Origin: a virus
Direction: 5' to 3' (one strand)
DNA length: 41,129 nucleotides
Virus record (IMG/VR): IMGVR_UViG_3300050033_000323
Span: 1-41,129 of that record
This document shows, one piece after another, positions 10,183 through 38,866 of the stretch; the stretch's first letter is position 1; the number at the start of each line of letters is the position of its first letter. The position numbers and the translations under genes were made by a program. A model generated the notes under the pieces. That model was not told the DNA's origin. It ran no database searches and saw nothing but the letters and a program-made list of their open reading frames with translations.

Positions 10183-11220
10183 CTATAATTTTCTTATTTG
10201 TAATAGTAAATCATTAACAAATTCTCCATCACAAATATCTGGAAGATTTGAATTTTGATATAATTCATCTAACCTCTTAACATCAAGTTCAGCCTTATCT
10301 AGGACTTCATCTAATGATAATTCACCTCTTCTTATTGATAATAGGAATTCAGCATTAGGTCTTTTAACATTGAATGTACCGGTTTCAGCGATTTCAATTG
10401 CCATATCTAATAGTCTTCTGCAATGCATTAAGTTTTTACCGTCAATTTTTTGATTATGGTTTTTAACCTCGGTATATTTAGCAATATTTCTATTTTCTAA
10501 CCATTCTTGATATTCTTTATAATCTTTACAATGGGTTGAATAACCTTCCATATTGAAATTAATCATAGTTAATGGTTCCAAAAATATTGGTATGGATGAT
10601 AATCTAGGTTCGTTACTATTTTCTAGAAATATACCTTTAAATTTAAATTCATTATCCTCTGAACTATCATAATATAATGCATAACTATTTTTAAAATGAT
10701 TAAGTTTAACTAAACCACATTTTTCTTGTTCAAGTCCGTAATCTTCTAAATATTTACTTAATGGCATGGTTTTACCGTCTACATATGCATGGGTGAAATC
10801 AATAGGGGTTTTTCTTGAAACCCTATCCATTTCCCAGTTTTGTTTTTTATCCAAACATCTAGCTTTTTTGATTTGAGCTAATGCATAACCACCAAATGAG
10901 TCTCGACATTTTTTAGTTAAGAATTTTTCTCTATGTTTAACCATCAATTGATATTGTGGTGATGTTTGTAATATACATTCTTCAGGGGCAAAGATGAGTT
11001 CTAACATTCCGGGATTTGCTGTTTGAAGCAATTGAATGAATCTTCTTACCTCATAATAACATTCATCTTTAGTTACATCAATTTGTTCTTTATAATTAAA
11101 CGTTATTAAATCATCAATGCTCTGCATGTAAATACCTTTAATATCAACATCGGATGTTGCGATATTTGTACCATATGATTGGCTACCAACTATGGTTTTA
11201 AAAATCAAGTTCTCTTTCAT
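10183..11220 (-). CDS. RlaP-type predicted nucleotidyltransferase, 345 aa
   Basis: The N-terminus has VGSQSYGTNIATSDVDIKGI, the Gly-Ser and Asp-x-Asp motif of polymerase-beta-fold nucleotidyltransferases of the PF10127/RlaP type, which are often found with RNA ligases. Length fits the family. It precedes the radical-SAM pair in the minus-strand operon. It would transfer a nucleotide to RNA or another acceptor; the substrate is unknown. Two RNA ligases in the window support an RNA-related role. Confidence 0.75.
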   Translation of the reverse strand: MKENLIFKTIVGSQSYGTNIATSDVDIKGIYMQSIDDLITFNYKEQIDVTKDECYYEVRRFIQLLQTANPGMLELIFAPEECILQTSPQYQLMVKHREKFLTKKCRDSFGGYALAQIKKARCLDKKQNWEMDRVSRKTPIDFTHAYVDGKTMPLSKYLEDYGLEQEKCGLVKLNHFKNSYALYYDSSEDNEFKFKGIFLENSNEPRLSSIPIFLEPLTMINFNMEGYSTHCKDYKEYQEWLENRNIAKYTEVKNHNQKIDGKNLMHCRRLLDMAIEIAETGTFNVKRPNAEFLLSIRRGELSLDEVLDKAELDVKRLDELYQNSNLPDICDGEFVNDLLLQIRKL

Positions 11221-22182: not shown

Positions 22183-22386
22183 TTATTTATTTATTATTTC
22201 ACCGGTATTTCTACTGTATACATTAGTTATATCTTTATTTAAAACATCTTTTATCATAGCCCATGATTGCATAATATCTCTATCAACAGATGTTTTCCTA
22301 TCCTTTGATTCTAGAATTCTAGCAACGATTCTGAATGTATCTTCAATTTGTTTTGCTTGATATTCATATATTTTTAACTCTTCCAT
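22183..22386 (-). CDS. hypothetical helical protein, 67 aa
   Basis: Mostly helical (YEYQAKQIEDTFRIVARILE). ATG overlaps the stop of the RNA-ligase C-terminal ORF by one base, so the two are coupled. Function unknown. Confidence 0.6.
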   Translation of the reverse strand: MEELKIYEYQAKQIEDTFRIVARILESKDRKTSVDRDIMQSWAMIKDVLNKDITNVYSRNTGEIINK

Positions 22387-22871
22387 TATATACCAGCTTT
22401 TTCATTTAATTTTTGCATAAACCAAGGTCTAGCTTTGTTTGATATTGCGCCACCAACTTCTTTTGGTTCTATACCATTGGCCATCATTGTATCCAATTCT
22501 TCTTTTACAATGTCACCATAAACCCATTTTAAGAAGAAAACTATGTTCTTTATTTCTAATTCAAGATTATTTTCTCTTAGTTTATCCAAACCTTGATTTA
22601 ATCTATTTTCAGTTACTGTATTACTAACGAATTCAGAAATTGAATTAACTTTCTCTGTATTTACAGGTACTTTCTCACGAGTTTCAGAAATTTTATGACT
22701 TAAACCCTTAACTTTAAAGAAGAACCTACCATTTAACCATTCTTTATCGCATGGAATAAATACGCAACCTTCACCATTCATGGTAACATTAAACGTAATT
22801 TCATCATTTAATTCTAAAAGTACGTCTGATTCGGTGGTTCCAAATTCATTTAATTTTATCGTATATTCCAT
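22386..22871 (-). CDS. rnlB: C-terminal part of Rnl2-type RNA ligase (split gene), 161 aa
   Basis: GEGCVFIPC (residues 33-41) is nucleotidyltransferase motif IV and GRFFFKVKGLSHK (48-60) is motif V. ENRLNQGLDKLRENNLELEI to ARPWFMQKLNE matches the Rnl2 helical C-terminal domain. Motifs I and III are missing here and lie in the ORF at 23910-24725 beyond the GIY-YIG gene. The first ~30 residues are not Rnl2-like. Confidence 0.7.
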   Translation of the reverse strand: MEYTIKLNEFGTTESDVLLELNDEITFNVTMNGEGCVFIPCDKEWLNGRFFFKVKGLSHKISETREKVPVNTEKVNSISEFVSNTVTENRLNQGLDKLRENNLELEIKNIVFFLKWVYGDIVKEELDTMMANGIEPKEVGGAISNKARPWFMQKLNEKAGI

Positions 22872-22889
22872 ATTATTATTATTTATTTA

Positions 22890-23861
22890 TTATTTATCTA
22901 AACATTGTATATTCCAACCATTAATTGATGAAATGCCTGATTTTTTTAAGTTGTTTCTAAATATTACCCAACCATCTTTATCTATATTATGCGGCCTTGG
23001 ATACTGTAGACCCCTATATTTAAAAAATTTAATAAGGTTAAAAGTTTTATATTCATTACCATTAATATCAGTAATAACCCATCTTTTTGATGATATTCCA
23101 CCTATTTCACCATTTTTAACTCTATAATCATCTTTATGAACCCTATAAATATTACCATTCCAATCTTTACCTGTCATAAAACCTAATCTCATTTTTGATA
23201 GTTTAGCTTTTAATTCATCAGTATGTTTAAAACCTTTATTTATATGTTTATATTCATTTTTACTATTTTTAAAAACATCCTTTGTTATTAAAAAACTTTT
23301 ACCGGTTTTAATTTCAATAACTGGTACTAAGCCAACTGTGTGACCAGATAAATTAACATCATTATCAAATTCATACTTAGAGACCCTAACTTTCTCATTG
23401 GTTAATACGTTAATTGCCACAACTTCCTTAGTTCTACCACACATTGGATTGTCTTTTCCGTGTAAAGGTGGTAATTTATAACTCAAACCATTTTTATGTT
23501 GTTCCGATGTTCGCTTACCTATTATTTTCTTCTGTTCGTCACTTATTACCATACCAAAAAAACCGTTTATACAAGCAAAAGACTCATTAAAATATTCTTT
23601 TGATTTAACAACGTTACGTTCTATTTGTACCCTAAGTTCTTCTATTAAAGCATCCTTCCTAGTTCCATGATAACTTAAAATAGTAACGCTAAATAAATGT
23701 TTATTATTTTTACTTTCAAAATTAAAAATATCGAACCATTTTTTAGACCTTATACTACCTAAATAACCATTTTTGATTTTATTTTCACTAGTGGAACCGA
23801 TATAATATTTTGGTAATTTATCACCACTATACGTAACCAAATAAACAACATATTCATTCAT
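22890..23861 (-). CDS. GIY-YIG homing endonuclease inserted in the RNA-ligase gene, 323 aa
   Basis: YVVYLVTYSGDKLPKYYIGS gives the GIY-YIG strands. A Glu-containing ALIEELRVQIERNVV follows. LHGKDNPMCGRT and the His/Lys-rich stretches fit NUMOD3-type DNA-binding repeats. It lies exactly between the two halves of the Rnl2-type ligase, same strand. A near-promoter (TTG-N19-TATATTTA at 23879-23908) could express it alone. Confidence 0.8.
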   Translation of the reverse strand: MNEYVVYLVTYSGDKLPKYYIGSTSENKIKNGYLGSIRSKKWFDIFNFESKNNKHLFSVTILSYHGTRKDALIEELRVQIERNVVKSKEYFNESFACINGFFGMVISDEQKKIIGKRTSEQHKNGLSYKLPPLHGKDNPMCGRTKEVVAINVLTNEKVRVSKYEFDNDVNLSGHTVGLVPVIEIKTGKSFLITKDVFKNSKNEYKHINKGFKHTDELKAKLSKMRLGFMTGKDWNGNIYRVHKDDYRVKNGEIGGISSKRWVITDINGNEYKTFNLIKFFKYRGLQYPRPHNIDKDGWVIFRNNLKKSGISSINGWNIQCLDK

Positions 23862-23909
23862 AATTAAACTTTTATTTATAAATATATGGGTATAGTATGA
23901 AATCGCAAT

Positions 23910-24725
23910 TTATTTTAAAGAAAATTTAATATAATTAATACCTTTAGGATGTTCAATTCTTTTATTTTTAAAAATTTGTATTAATTCTTTTTTTATCGGT
24001 TTTACTAAATCGTTTTCATTTTTAAATGATATTTCACCGTTCTCATCTTCAAATGCTATATTATCAACCCAAACCGATTCACCAAATGCTTTAGCTACCG
24101 GACATTCTTTATCTATTTCATCAACTAATAAACCCATTTTATCAGCAGCTTCTTTTGGATTGTTAAAATCGATGGTTATATTATATACTGGGTAGTCTAA
24201 TATGTTGAATATATTATGGTCAGGTAACTTAACATTCTTTAATATGTCGTCAGAAACCCATTCATCATTAATTTTAATACCGAAAATAACCATTCGTTTT
24301 GATAACTTGGCAATACCAACACCCGATTGTATTTTTTGCCCACACCACTCAGAATAAACTTTAATTATTGGTGAGTCAACTATTAATTCTTCTGGAATTA
24401 AGTTAAGTAACTCTAATACCGGTCTAGTATGAACAAATGCAGCAAAACCCATATTGTCTTTTTGAGGTGTTATTATATTTTCTCTTGATTGACAATAGAA
24501 TTGATAAACATCTAACTCACTGTCTTTCACAAAAATAACACCTGAATTAGTTCCATGTAATTTTACGGTACCCCTATAATTTAATACTGGTAATGGTATA
24601 GTACTATCAAATAATGGTGAACCATTATAATCTTTACCTATATATCTCGTTCTATAGGTAACATCTTGTATTACATTCCTAAATTGTTGAATATCTGGGA
24701 ATGAATAAAACGTATTTTCACTCAT
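23910..24725 (-). CDS. rnlB: N-terminal part of Rnl2-type RNA ligase (split gene), 271 aa
   Basis: YRGTVKLHGTNSGVIF holds motif I with the adenylated Lys (about residue 55). QFYCQSREN, IKVYSEWCGQ (motif III region) and RMVIFGIKI (IIIa) follow. Rnl2 similarity ends near CPVAKAFG (208-215), just before where motif IV should come. The last ~55 residues look like run-on sequence. The rest of the enzyme is at 22386-22871. Seals nicked or broken RNA if reconstituted. Confidence 0.75.
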   Translation of the reverse strand: MSENTFYSFPDIQQFRNVIQDVTYRTRYIGKDYNGSPLFDSTIPLPVLNYRGTVKLHGTNSGVIFVKDSELDVYQFYCQSRENIITPQKDNMGFAAFVHTRPVLELLNLIPEELIVDSPIIKVYSEWCGQKIQSGVGIAKLSKRMVIFGIKINDEWVSDDILKNVKLPDHNIFNILDYPVYNITIDFNNPKEAADKMGLLVDEIDKECPVAKAFGESVWVDNIAFEDENGEISFKNENDLVKPIKKELIQIFKNKRIEHPKGINYIKFSLK

Positions 24726-24741
24726 ATTATTATTTTTAAAT

Positions 24742-25008
24742 TTATACTAATAAATTATCAACCTCTAAATAACTTACACTAGGGGTGTGTTGTAATTCAT
24801 ATATTTTTATTATTTTATTTTTATCTTTTATAGCTTCCAATCTTTTATTTTTATTAATATTACTACCACTATCACCTTCATTAATTTCAACGTTAAAACA
24901 ATTTTCTTTTAACGTTTTTGATATTAAATCAATTATAGTTGATTTACCACTGGCTAATGAACCACTTACTGTTATGATTATTTCATCATTTAAACTTTTA
25001 TCTTTCAT
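24742..25008 (-). CDS. small P-loop protein, 88 aa
   Basis: IIITVSGSLASGKSTIIDLI is a Walker A loop with its helix; no Walker B or lid is seen. Very like 27102-27350 (GRSASGKTTIQEIIEKAL). Could be a truncated kinase or a nucleotide-binding adaptor. Precedes the RNA-ligase N-terminal ORF. Confidence 0.65.
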   Translation of the reverse strand: MKDKSLNDEIIITVSGSLASGKSTIIDLISKTLKENCFNVEINEGDSGSNINKNKRLEAIKDKNKIIKIYELQHTPSVSYLEVDNLLV

Positions 25009-27355: not shown

Positions 27356-28756
27356 CTATTTTGTTAATCCCTTACACATGTTTTCAATAGCTAATATTTC
27401 TTCATAAGAATCGGCAACCGTTTTATCGGTCCTAAATTTGTTTTTACCTAATCTTGGATGTAAAAGAGAGTGTTTACCCTTACTATTAGTAATACCACAA
27501 GACTTAACATCAACTATAGTACCTAACAATTCTTCTTGTCTAACTGTTACATCGACCATTGTCTTCTCATCCATACCACAAGGTTCGGCTGTTAATAACC
27601 CATCACTAGATTTACATTGTAATGAGGCAATAACGAATTCATTTTTTTTACCTTTTTCACCATAGTTAAAACCAACTATCTCTAAATCAACATCCATATC
27701 TAATTTCATTTTAACTTGGTTGGGTTTTTTACCATCTCTCCATAATCCATTTATGGTTTTAATAACACAACCTTCTAAACCACGGTCTAAGCAATGTTGG
27801 AAATATCTCAACGCATCTTCAAATGAAGTTAATACGACCGTTTCAACAACCCTAACCATAGTTAAGTTATATTCTTTAATTAAGTTAGTTACCTTACTCA
27901 AACGTTCATTATACGGTGTATCAGATGATTTATTGTAGTATTCATATGGTGTAATAATATCCCATACAGTATAAGCAATTTTATTTAAAGCTTCATCATA
28001 ATCATATTTATGTTTCTTTTTAAATTCAATTTTCTTTTTATTGGTTTCTTCTTCAGTTCTCTCATCAATTTTCTTGGCAATATCGATTAATGAACTCATA
28101 ATACCATTAGCAGTTAAACGATTTTCTTCACCATCAATAGTGAACTCACCATTTAAAACACAATCAGGTAATTTAGATAATTCAAGTAAAAATTTAGCAC
28201 CGGTTAATATTATAGGTTCACCTTGACGAGATTCACCATAAACATCACCATTACGTATAATTTCAGCACCATATTGGCCGTCCATCTTGATTTGGCCATA
28301 ACAACTATTACCATTATCAAATAACTTACTTACAATCTCTTTTTTATAACTGAGACACCCCATATAAGGGGTTTCCTCAAAAAGGTCTGGTATTACTTTA
28401 TTGATGTTACCACCCATCTTAATTTTGAGGTCCTTACCTATAATTCTTTCAATTACGTAAGCATCATCAGATGATAAATGACTTAAAATAGTACCTAAAT
28501 GGTCTGAAGCATCTTTACCGGTAACTTCTCTACTTGAGAGTGCTGTAAATTGATTTAAAGCTTCTTCTAATGTATCTTCACCCGAAACTTTAGTGTATTC
28601 AGGTATTTGTTTAATATAGAATTTAACCCTACCTGAATTAGCCAAATATAAAACTCTTTTTAATAATTCATTATCTTTATATTTACCTAAGATAACCATT
28701 TTTTGTTTTGTGCTACTCTCGTTTGCGATTTCATCCAATATTGTCTTTATATTCAT
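27356..28756 (-). CDS. ATP-dependent DNA ligase, 466 aa
   Basis: Motif I CYGQIKMDGQYG (Lys about 157), motif III CVLNGEFTIDG, motif IV LEGCVIKTI, motif V QVKMKLDMDVDLEIVGF, then an OB-fold C-terminus. Start at MNIKTILDEIANE; the frame is open further but runs through the previous gene, and an ATG five codons earlier is possible. Seals DNA nicks in replication or repair. Ends in TAG. Confidence 0.85.
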   Translation of the reverse strand: MNIKTILDEIANESSTKQKMVILGKYKDNELLKRVLYLANSGRVKFYIKQIPEYTKVSGEDTLEEALNQFTALSSREVTGKDASDHLGTILSHLSSDDAYVIERIIGKDLKIKMGGNINKVIPDLFEETPYMGCLSYKKEIVSKLFDNGNSCYGQIKMDGQYGAEIIRNGDVYGESRQGEPIILTGAKFLLELSKLPDCVLNGEFTIDGEENRLTANGIMSSLIDIAKKIDERTEEETNKKKIEFKKKHKYDYDEALNKIAYTVWDIITPYEYYNKSSDTPYNERLSKVTNLIKEYNLTMVRVVETVVLTSFEDALRYFQHCLDRGLEGCVIKTINGLWRDGKKPNQVKMKLDMDVDLEIVGFNYGEKGKKNEFVIASLQCKSSDGLLTAEPCGMDEKTMVDVTVRQEELLGTIVDVKSCGITNSKGKHSLLHPRLGKNKFRTDKTVADSYEEILAIENMCKGLTK

Positions 28757-28760
28757 ATAT

Positions 28761-29666
28761 TTATTTTCCATATGAATCCATCCATTTTCTAACGTGCCAT
28801 AACATACCACACCCTGCTCCCACACTGTCTTGTCCGGCCGGGTCAAATACTCTTACATTATATCCATCATCAATAAAGTTATTCATGACTTCATTAATAA
28901 CATCTAAGTTTCTATAACCAGCATCTTTCATTGTTTCATCGGCCGAGCATATAACACTAAATGTAAAATTGAATACTGAAGGTGAGAATAGGTCTTTTAA
29001 TCGATTAATTTCACCATCTGATATATTTGTACCATCTATACAATAATTGAGGTACACTGGTCTATTTGTGACACTATTCCAGTATGTACCATAGTCACGT
29101 ATTTCTCTAAGTGTTAATTTATTTTTAAACGGTATCAAAAAATTTCTTTTTTCTTCGTATGCTTGATGAATACTGAATTGTAGACCAACTTTATCAATCT
29201 CTTCACTTAATGCACATAATCTACTTAAAACATTATTATTATTAATACCGACAGTTGATAATAATAATTGTGCGTTAGGATATATAAAATTTAACTTTCT
29301 AAAAGATTCTTCAACCGCTTCAAAATTTAACATATTTTCACCCATACTCATCGTCATAATTTGAAATTTTTCACAACGACTGTTTAACGATGGGATATTA
29401 TTATTTATTTGAATATCATTAACAATATCAGTAATTTGAAACATAATTTCATCACTGGTTAAATTCCTAATAAATTTTTTACCAGTTCCACAGAATGAAC
29501 AACCTACTGGACAACCACTTTGAACCGAGCAACATATTACAGTTCGTTTCTCAAATGATTCGTATTTGTATAAAACTGCTTCTACAATAGCATTTTCAAA
29601 TTCGTAAACATATTTCCATACATTACCTTCTGGACTAGGATAAATGTCTTTTTTAATTAATTGCAT
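28761..29666 (-). CDS. RlmN-like radical-SAM methyltransferase, 301 aa
   Basis: SGCPVGCSFCGTGKKFIRNL has the CxxxCxxC cluster and RNLT typical of RlmN/Cfr. MSMGENMLNFEAVEES is the glycine-rich SAM region. LLSTVG and the late GQDSVGAGCGMLW resemble the catalytic Cys segment (GQDIxAACGQL). RlmN methylates A2503 of 23S rRNA and A37 of some tRNAs; slightly short for the family. Promoter 29689-29719. Confidence 0.75.
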   Translation of the reverse strand: MQLIKKDIYPSPEGNVWKYVYEFENAIVEAVLYKYESFEKRTVICCSVQSGCPVGCSFCGTGKKFIRNLTSDEIMFQITDIVNDIQINNNIPSLNSRCEKFQIMTMSMGENMLNFEAVEESFRKLNFIYPNAQLLLSTVGINNNNVLSRLCALSEEIDKVGLQFSIHQAYEEKRNFLIPFKNKLTLREIRDYGTYWNSVTNRPVYLNYCIDGTNISDGEINRLKDLFSPSVFNFTFSVICSADETMKDAGYRNLDVINEVMNNFIDDGYNVRVFDPAGQDSVGAGCGMLWHVRKWMDSYGK

Positions 29667-30609: not shown

Positions 30610-31303
30610 ATGACACCCGAAGAACTTAAAATATATAAAAGAAATTGGTATTTAGCTAACGAAGATAGGCTAAAAACAAAAAAAACTTGATAATTCAGAA
30701 TATTTAAAACTAAAACGAAAAGAACGTTATGACGCTAATGCCGATGAAATCAGACGTAAAAGACGTGAATATTATTATAAAAATAAAGAGCTTGAAGCTA
30801 ATCGTAGTAAATCTTACCATGAACTTAATCGTGACAAAAATTTAGCTGTTAAAAAGAAATATAGGGAAAACAATAAAGAAAAAATAGCTAAATCTAAAAA
30901 GGAATGGGATATTTACCATAGAGAGCATGTTTGTGATTATGTTAAAAATAAAAGACTTACAAATCCGAAATATAAATTAAAACAAAACATAGGTAGTAGA
31001 ATTCGGGAGTGTATTATTAATAATGGTTATCAAAAAAAATCTAAAACATGTGATATACTTGGTTGTTCAATCGAAGAATTTAAATTATACTTAGAATCTA
31101 AATTTGAAGATTGGATGAACTGGGATAATTATGGTAATCCTAAAGATGGTATCTACGAAATTAATAAGACATGGGATATCGACCACATTAAACCAATAAC
31201 CACAGGAAAGACTGAAGAGGATATACTTAAATTAAACCATTATACCAATCTTCAGCCTTTATGTAGTTATACAAATCGTTTTATAAAAAGAAATAATTTC
31301 TAA
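30610..31303 (+). CDS. HNH homing endonuclease, frameshifted sister of 16398-17126
   Basis: ATG at 30610 gives MTPEELKIYKRNWYLANEDR then a stop caused by a run of eight A (30678-30685). With seven A the frame continues through basic helices to CDILGCSIEEFKLYLESKFE and the HNH core WDIDHIKPIT..LNHYTNLQPLCSYTNR. The last ~65 residues are almost identical to the other copy. Transcribed convergently with the RNA-ligase gene, overlapping it by 4 bp. Confidence 0.7.
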
Positions 31304-32421
31304 TTTAATATTTTATAAAGTTTCTTATTATCAAAAACCATTAGATACTCTTTTACCGACTTAATTTTATTATCATATAAAGAAAAAAATAAACCAGTAA
31401 ATATACTTAAATCACTTATATTTGATGTATTAATTATAATATCAGCAATTATTTTACGATTGATTGATTTATCATTTACTGGATATTCTTCAATAATTCT
31501 ATTAAAAATTTCAAACCAAGTATATTGTAATTTATCTGTCAATATATCATATTTACATTTCAAGTTTATTATATCATCTTTCTTATCTGGAAAAGTAGCT
31601 ATAAATTCCTCTATTTCATTAGATTTTATAATATCTAATATATGATGTGTAGCTGTTTTACTTCTTAAAAAATGTGCAGCCACATATGCTGGATTCTTAA
31701 TCTTAACTCTATTAAAATTACCATCCACTATAACATAACCTTCTTCAGAAAATGGCATACCCTCAAATTTATTCTTTATTTCATCTAATGTAGATACATT
31801 CATACTCACATACCCAATTAATTCAATACCTAATATTAAGGAATATTGTGATAATTCTTCATATGGTATTTCTGATAGGGTAATTCTATTTCGAATAGTT
31901 AATAAGGTAATACTATATGTTACGTGTGGTGTAACAATTATATTTTTAGGGGTACATAATTCAAAAACATAAATTAAATCTTTATCTAATCTATTAATAT
32001 CAAATTTAGCTGTGTACCAAAATAATTCACTAAATGTCATACTATCAGAATTAACATTACCCTCACCATTTGGTGTACCACTAGTTCCAGAACACCAAAC
32101 ATTTAGATACCAATCCCAATATAATTGTATTAATGTACCGTCTTTTTTTATGAGACATTTGGCAGTATTTAAATCAATATTAGCTGCGTGACCCTCACCA
32201 TAATTGAAAAATTTAATAAAAGCTAATGACATTACTTTCCAAGTGTCACGTTCTAAAATTAAACCACGACATTCTCTCGTTTCTTGAAAAGCCATTGGTG
32301 ATTCTAACATATCATACTTTAAAAGAATCTTATTCTCACATACATTAGTTTTAAGCTTAAAGTCGTTAATAGCCTTTGCTAAACCATGTTCTTTTATATA
32401 TTTTACTATTGCTAATTCCAT
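31300..32421 (-). CDS. rnlA: Rnl1-type RNA ligase, 373 aa
   Basis: ECRGLILERDTW then CLIKKDGTLIQLYW holds motif I (Lys of K-x-D-G, about residue 92). IYVFELCTP is motif III, FSEEGYVIVD motif IV, RVKIKNPAYVA motif V. Length equals T4 Rnl1. Seals broken tRNAs or other single-stranded RNA. Starts at MELAIVKYI, two bases after the upstream stop. A second RNA ligase of another family is at 22.4-24.7 kb. Confidence 0.85.
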   Translation of the reverse strand: MELAIVKYIKEHGLAKAINDFKLKTNVCENKILLKYDMLESPMAFQETRECRGLILERDTWKVMSLAFIKFFNYGEGHAANIDLNTAKCLIKKDGTLIQLYWDWYLNVWCSGTSGTPNGEGNVNSDSMTFSELFWYTAKFDINRLDKDLIYVFELCTPKNIIVTPHVTYSITLLTIRNRITLSEIPYEELSQYSLILGIELIGYVSMNVSTLDEIKNKFEGMPFSEEGYVIVDGNFNRVKIKNPAYVAAHFLRSKTATHHILDIIKSNEIEEFIATFPDKKDDIINLKCKYDILTDKLQYTWFEIFNRIIEEYPVNDKSINRKIIADIIINTSNISDLSIFTGLFFSLYDNKIKSVKEYLMVFDNKKLYKILN

Positions 32422-37989: not shown

Positions 37990-38005
37990 TCCCCCCTTTT
38001 TATTT
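37976..38005 (+). terminator. terminator between convergent genes
   Basis: AAGGGAG..CCCCCCTTTTTAT: G-rich arm pairs with the C-run, plus-strand T tail, at the convergent end of 37603-37989 and 38000-38866. Confidence 0.65.
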
Positions 38006-38866
38006 ATAATCTTCCGGAAACATATGTTTTTTAATAAAAGAATCAATATCTTCTAAATTAATTAAATGCATAAAATCTTCATCACGAAACACAAATGCAA
38101 CTTTATTACTTATATGACTAAATATAGGTAAATCAACCACTGATATTTGATTGCGCTCTATAACTAGATTAGGGTTCTTACGGGCATTATGGTTTTTAGG
38201 TAATGTATCAATCTCCGCTTGAGAAAATAGTTTAGAGGTTATAACTCTCTTAACATAAGTACCACGTTTAAATTTAGCCGGTAAATCGTTCCAATTAACA
38301 CCTTTTTCAAGCATCATTATATCTTGTTTTTGTTTACCATTAAGACCTAATAATCTATTGTGAGAAAATAAACTTTGCGCCAACATTGATATACTATTTT
38401 TACTAGCATCATTTTCTCGCCATAATAATTGAGCACATGCATCATCTAAAGTAGGTGTTTGATATATTCTACAATCAAATATTGCTGGTTTAGTGTGACC
38501 CGGTAAATATTTCTCTCTATTTTCATTAAAGAATTGAACACATTTACCAGTTAATTTAGATAAAATCTTTTGTTTCTTACCATCATTATATATTGCAGAT
38601 TTTCTATTACTAGAATATAATATCAAATTTATTTCGTCACTTTGAGTGTAACCAATAACAGCATTAGTTTCTTTAACTAACATTTTAGTCGTTTCAATCA
38701 TTAAATTGCTCAATCTTTCATCAAATGGTTTAATTAATCCTCTCGTCCATGTTGAGAAATTATTACCATCTAATCTTATTATAACTGGTAGTGTTGGTAC
38801 CATAATCTCTGGTGAAAAATTTTTTTCTAGCCATTTGCTCCAATCACCTAATTTTTCGTAATCCAT
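38000..38866 (-). CDS. thg1: Thg1-like tRNA guanylyltransferase / 3'-5' RNA polymerase, 288 aa
   Basis: PVIIRLDGNNFSTWTRG has the first metal Asp with G-x-x-F, KPFDERLSNLM follows, and GYTQSDEINLIL has the second metal Asp of the Thg1 family. HNRLLGLNGKQKQDIMMLEK and the C-terminal part are also family-like. Adds nucleotides to tRNA 5' ends, template-free (G-1 of tRNA-His) or templated repair. The interrupted or truncated tRNAs nearby could be substrates (inference). Confidence 0.85.
   Translation of the reverse strand: MDYEKLGDWSKWLEKNFSPEIMVPTLPVIIRLDGNNFSTWTRGLIKPFDERLSNLMIETTKMLVKETNAVIGYTQSDEINLILYSSNRKSAIYNDGKKQKILSKLTGKCVQFFNENREKYLPGHTKPAIFDCRIYQTPTLDDACAQLLWRENDASKNSISMLAQSLFSHNRLLGLNGKQKQDIMMLEKGVNWNDLPAKFKRGTYVKRVITSKLFSQAEIDTLPKNHNARKNPNLVIERNQISVVDLPIFSHISNKVAFVFRDEDFMHLINLEDIDSFIKKHMFPEDYK

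Follow-up and report, generated by a model that had tools for sequence, protein, structure and literature searches.

The Rnl2-type RNA ligase gene of this phage is divided by a cassette that carries a GIY-YIG nuclease gene and that probably also supplies its own docking peptides, a C-terminal tail on the upstream ligase piece and an N-terminal head on the downstream one, whose docking would give a two-subunit ligase. The window, i.e. the whole stretch of DNA analysed, covers positions 1 to 41,129 (41,129 nucleotides) of virus record IMGVR_UViG_3300050033_000323. The same split, with the same tail and head, is present in eight other phage lineages (L090, L091, L092, L095, L096, L097, L100 and L102). 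The locus is organized as follows:

23910-24725, minus strand: N-terminal ligase ORF, 271 aa, KLHGTN at residues 55-60
24075-24725, minus strand: N-terminal ligase part proper, residues 1-217, with K55 in KLHGTN and the EWCG segment, aligned with intact homologues
23910-24074, minus strand: N-tail, residues 218-271 and stop, non-ligase sequence, in nine split lineages
22890-23861, minus strand: GIY-YIG homing endonuclease-like gene, 323 aa, phrog_10820 and phrog_314, orthologues in seven of the eight other split lineages
22386-22871, minus strand: C-terminal ligase ORF, 161 aa, with GEGCVF and FFKVKG
22779-22871, minus strand: C-head, the first 31 residues of the C piece, with an ATG of its own, non-ligase sequence
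22386-22778, minus strand: C-terminal ligase part proper, with motif IV (E34 G35), motif V (K53, K55), helical C-terminal domain and stop
22779-24074, minus strand: putative whole mobile cassette, about 1.3 kb, consisting of tail, stop, spacer, GIY-YIG gene, spacer, ATG and head

The preliminary description of this DNA had placed three ORFs here, with KLHGTN in the first and GEGCVF and FFKVKG in the third, and had read the outer two as one Rnl2-type ligase and the middle one as a GIY-YIG gene lying between them on the same strand, all of which is borne out. In profile searches, positions 3-199 of PHROG 548 (RNA ligase) match the first ORF (E 2e-26) and positions 200-340 the third (E 3e-24); the break thus falls between adjacent profile positions, and the two ORFs complement each other within a single Rnl2-type ligase rather than being members of different ligase families. 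The N piece is also matched by Pfam PF09414. Together the pieces have the features of an Rnl2-type RNA ligase, with motif I (KxHGTN), motif IV (EGxV), motif V (KxK) and a C-terminal helical domain, and the motif residues form invariant columns in the alignments of both pieces. The cut lies just before motif IV, where intact relatives read CPVxKxFGxSG(I/V)GEGxV. Rnl2 similarity had been said to stop at CPVAKAFG and to resume at GEG, which agrees with our alignment apart from the ES that still belongs to the first part; to this we add that the break is bordered by non-ligase sequence, 54 extra residues beyond FGES in the N piece and 31 residues ahead of the N-GEG of the C piece. A search of the 41 kb virus record, possibly incomplete, turned up no second Rnl2, intact or otherwise. 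An 88-aa ORF with a P-loop (GSLASGKST) lies directly upstream of the ligase pieces (24742-25008, minus strand) and looks like a short or truncated kinase.

The middle ORF matches phrog_10820 (E 2e-25), a family annotated as "HNH endonuclease", and phrog_314 (E 2e-10), and gives weak matches to SegE_GIY-YIG and NUMOD3 in Pfam, below the Pfam cut-off. The Y..Y, Y-G, R, E and N columns are conserved in the nuclease alignment (A9), and the domain with these residues, followed by putative DNA-binding C-terminal modules, would be that of a GIY-YIG homing endonuclease. A full-length relative of the cassette nuclease stands free after a DNA ligase gene in a 364.7 kb phage contig (L189, 2989-3912), without tails, and no Rnl2 match was found in that record.

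The other split lineages were recovered by searching viral contigs with alignments as queries, which were needed, since scans with a single C piece or a single nuclease protein found nothing. L103 is a near-copy of L096, L100 is the same as L101, and L028 carries the same motif IV cassette too. The tail (~54 aa) and head (~31 aa) always accompany the split and are missing from intact ligases. The insert is optional, as two near-identical relatives carry the empty allele: intact L114 and split L095 are 99.6% identical over flanks of 2663 and 2504 bp, the insert being the difference between them, and intact L148 and split L096 are about 96% identical in their flanks. Read against these empty sites, the insert consists of tail, stop, nuclease, ATG and head, so that the head is part of it, and its ends fall at identical codons in both comparisons. 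At the junction the sequence reads GGT TTC TC^ ... ^GAA GGT, with the three codons that encode GIG replaced at the end of the insert. The cassette ends in the window were transferred by alignment from these two comparisons, to within 2 codons on either side. In L092, only 123 nt separate the two ligase pieces, including a remnant of the C-terminal part of the nuclease, and both pieces are intact.

The preliminary description had left open whether the insert is an intron with its endonuclease gene inside or whether a free-standing insertion converted the ligase into two polypeptides, and our results favor the second. Two points would speak for a group I mobile intron, spliced at the RNA level to restore one ligase ORF and with tail and head as mere open intron sequence: homing endonucleases inside essential genes most often reside in introns, and the insertion site is a conserved active-site motif. 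The group I core that was to be sought in the intervening RNA was, however, not found: no group I or II core was detected in the window (E up to 1) or in the L092 insert (E up to 5), whereas the T4 td intron was found as a control in the same search mode (E 2.4e-8). No group I or II match above gathering was obtained in eight loci either, a result that is weak alone since T4 td is also missed at the gathering threshold. Moreover, the RNA of the L092 insert folds no better than shuffled sequences (z 0.53), only short spacers lie outside the ORFs, and the substitutions in the tail are mostly synonymous, making an intron very unlikely. The head ATG is conserved and the tail stop lies at about the same place in all nine lineages, which further favors two polypeptides.

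Splicing at the protein level, with the tail as Int-N and the head as Int-C of a split intein that joins the halves in trans, is less credible still. The layout, a tail at the end of the N piece and a head at the start of the C piece, is that of split-intein fractured genes, and a related ligase (L032) does contain a true intein. Against this, tail and head together come to about 85 aa, whereas a Hint domain usually takes at least about 130 aa, and the tail has no match, to a Hint domain or otherwise, among Pfam and PDB sequences. The junction residues vary among the nine lineages: the insert lacks a conserved Cys/Ser/Thr where it starts and an Asn followed by Cys/Ser/Thr where it ends. With neither an intron core nor intein nucleophiles, two polypeptides remain, and the division of the ligase gene into two separately translated parts is well supported.

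The split ligase is under unrelaxed constraint. The median dN/dS is 0.193 between split ligase cores and intact homologues and 0.197 among the intact ones, the catalytic motifs are kept in all nine split ligases, and no stops or frameshifts are present in the nine class A pairs. The split also persists after loss of the nuclease, as L092 keeps both pieces with a dN/dS of 0.14-0.19 against intact homologues (median of intact pairs about 0.20). These data, together with the conservation of the tail across lineages with only 40-57% core identity, argue against the view that the insertion killed the ligase and that its pieces are in decay or of use only for expressing the nuclease, which we regard as improbable. 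Two observations nevertheless lean toward it: the insertions in L095 and L096 are very recent and cannot show selection after the split, and the window has a long Rnl2 branch (0.98 in the core tree), compatible with some relaxation, as well as an Rnl1-type ligase, so that its Rnl2 might be dispensable. The latter is one of several nucleic-acid repair genes of the window:

31300-32421, minus strand: Rnl1-type RNA ligase
27356-28846, minus strand: ATP-dependent DNA ligase
38000-38866, minus strand: tRNA-His guanylyltransferase
10183-11220, minus strand: nucleotidyltransferase

The tail itself is under strong purifying selection, with a dN/dS of 0.03-0.12 in close pairs, no higher than in the ligase core, and ten residues are invariant among the eight tails compared. 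The head is more variable (dN/dS 0.27-0.83, and >1 between the window and L090), with few sites and too short for a firm statement on selection. Profile comparison revealed no similarity of the tail to the ligase profile. An origin of tail and head by duplication and decay of parts of the ligase was considered because MAFFT apparently aligned them with neighboring ligase strands, and was rejected on profile comparison probabilities of about 1% or less; similarly, a tail shared with those of other split sites or of Aeh1 NrdA was rejected, the scores being near zero. Elsewhere in phages, tail hits had E values of about 6 or worse. Searches with one peptide pattern, which could miss distant tails, found the tail only in the same contigs among viral contigs and not at all among genome contigs.

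This conservation also bears on a simpler explanation, that the native ligase interface alone reassembles the halves while tail and head only cap the break or aid nuclease expression. Many enzymes tolerate splitting, and the weak conservation of the head would fit. In contrast, a mere cap would hardly account for a tail at least as constrained as the ligase core, and tails are also found at split sites of other classes. Furthermore, the tails of Aeh1 NrdA were reportedly found to be essential by Crona et al. in 2011. We therefore consider reassembly by the native interface alone to be unlikely, if slightly less so than a dead ligase, and docking through tails encoded by the mobile element to be likely.

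The cassette has moved between phages repeatedly. On the ligase core tree, the nine split genes need 8 changes, no better than with shuffled labels. Third-position identity between L095 and L096 is 49% in the N core, 71% in the tail, 79% in the nuclease, 84% in the head and 50% in the C core, the cassette thus being synonymously less diverged than the surrounding ligase. Protein identities of cassette and core also conflict: the ligase core of the window is closest to L090 (55%), whereas its nuclease is closest to L095-97 (63-65%, versus 51% to L090). The jumps of third-position identity at the borders and this conflict indicate that tail, nuclease and head travel together.

We propose that a GIY-YIG homing cassette inserted into a phage Rnl2-type RNA ligase gene at the codons for motif IV, giving the upstream half an in-frame C-terminal tail with a stop and the downstream half an ATG with an in-frame N-terminal head. 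Without splicing, three polypeptides would be made, the N ligase piece, the nuclease and the C ligase piece. Tail and head, by analogy with known split enzymes, would bind each other, most likely as the two halves of a small docking domain, which would keep the ligase halves joined across motif IV and rebuild the active site of the adenylyltransferase, and the reassembled enzyme would presumably be active as a ligase. The insertion might thereby cost the host gene little, the cassette entering an active-site gene without destroying it.

Structure models were obtained with AlphaFold on read-through chains in which artificial linkers replaced the stop codons and spacers; an alignment into which intact ligases had been mixed put the tails in the wrong place and was kept out of folding, and two further alignments were dropped for poorly aligned rows. 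In both L092 and the window, the tail is predicted as strand-strand-helix-strand and the head as two strands, with moderate confidence (pLDDT about 46-79). The best PDB matches of the L092 model by Foldseek are T4 Rnl2 structures (2HVR/2HVQ/1S68), and its overall fit to T4 Rnl2 is poor (TM 0.30 / 0.43), so that the model backs secondary structure and family only. With this fit and the moderate confidence in tail and head, the docking geometry is not established by the AF2 models.

Other nucleases interrupt further members of this Rnl2-type ligase family elsewhere in the gene. In contig IMGVR_UViG_3300006484_000013 (L028, 2070-5471), the RNA ligase is in three pieces: in addition to the motif IV cassette, a second insert at ITP^DNAGF comprises a 40-aa tail, a GIY-YIG gene on the opposite strand and a 14-aa head with ATG, L096 being the empty site. 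L085 (3324-5303) and L086 carry a split after motif V with an HNH gene on the opposite strand, a tail VGGTWIEG...FEFLE and a head MLKIISNGKEYEVDV..., for which no near-identical empty site was found. In L075 (3784-5393), an opposite-strand HNH gene interrupts the ligase at motif IV and the N part is tailed; no Rfam intron was found there, and the locus was left out of the split count, since no start codon is evident for its C part. The intein of L032 (2-1597) lies in frame at EWCG^SGIQ (ends VHN|S) and contains an endonuclease-like region. Finally, the ligase ORF of L046 (4603-5375) lies in overlapping frames without an insert, reflecting a frameshift or a sequencing error.

The best structural and family match, T4 RNA ligase 2 (Rnl2, PDB 2HVR/1S68), is here encoded in two genes, and a search of an open-access literature collection brought up no account of a split Rnl2. 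Other phage replication genes are split next to a homing endonuclease gene as this ligase is, namely the T4 topoisomerase (gene 60 / mobA) and the phage 25 DNA polymerase (43A/43B), whose pieces are thought or shown to cooperate, and the available text of the source describes no co-mobile conserved terminal peptides for them (PMC2988022). Split inteins with a homing endonuclease in fractured genes resemble the ligase cassette in that a mobile unit supplies the terminal peptides that reunite the protein halves, but the cassette has no intein motifs or nucleophiles, and its predicted assembly is non-covalent. If docking is confirmed, protein engineering could draw on the tails for small split docking pairs, and phage enzymes whose annotation calls them truncated would have to be re-examined. 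Such cassettes with a split docking domain, which would turn the invaded enzyme into two non-covalently joined subunits, may form a third general niche for homing endonucleases within coding genes, beside introns and inteins; the unrelated cassettes of L028 and L085 at other ligase sites and Aeh1 mobE would then be further families. The closest parallel is the arrangement NrdA-a / mobE / NrdA-b of phage Aeh1, in which a homing endonuclease gene likewise lies within a conserved enzyme gene and yields two polypeptides with terminal extras. The split NrdA is reported to form an active enzyme (PMC2988022; PMC3267527), and in the Aeh1 genome both pieces show extra terminal sequence at the break; the ligase locus is likewise a gene in pieces, with an endonuclease between part-enzyme ORFs and tails unique to the break. 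The two differ in the enzyme, in the nuclease (HNH in Aeh1, GIY-YIG here) and in tail sequence, which has no detectable similarity. The Aeh1 reductase alone had made one ask how function survives in a gene that a homing endonuclease has interrupted; with one cassette in nine phage lineages, a direct test becomes possible of whether mobile elements bring along a protein-reassembly domain of their own, and in contrast to Aeh1, the ligase cassette makes visible the empty sites, the repeated transfer of the unit and a split that outlasted its nuclease.
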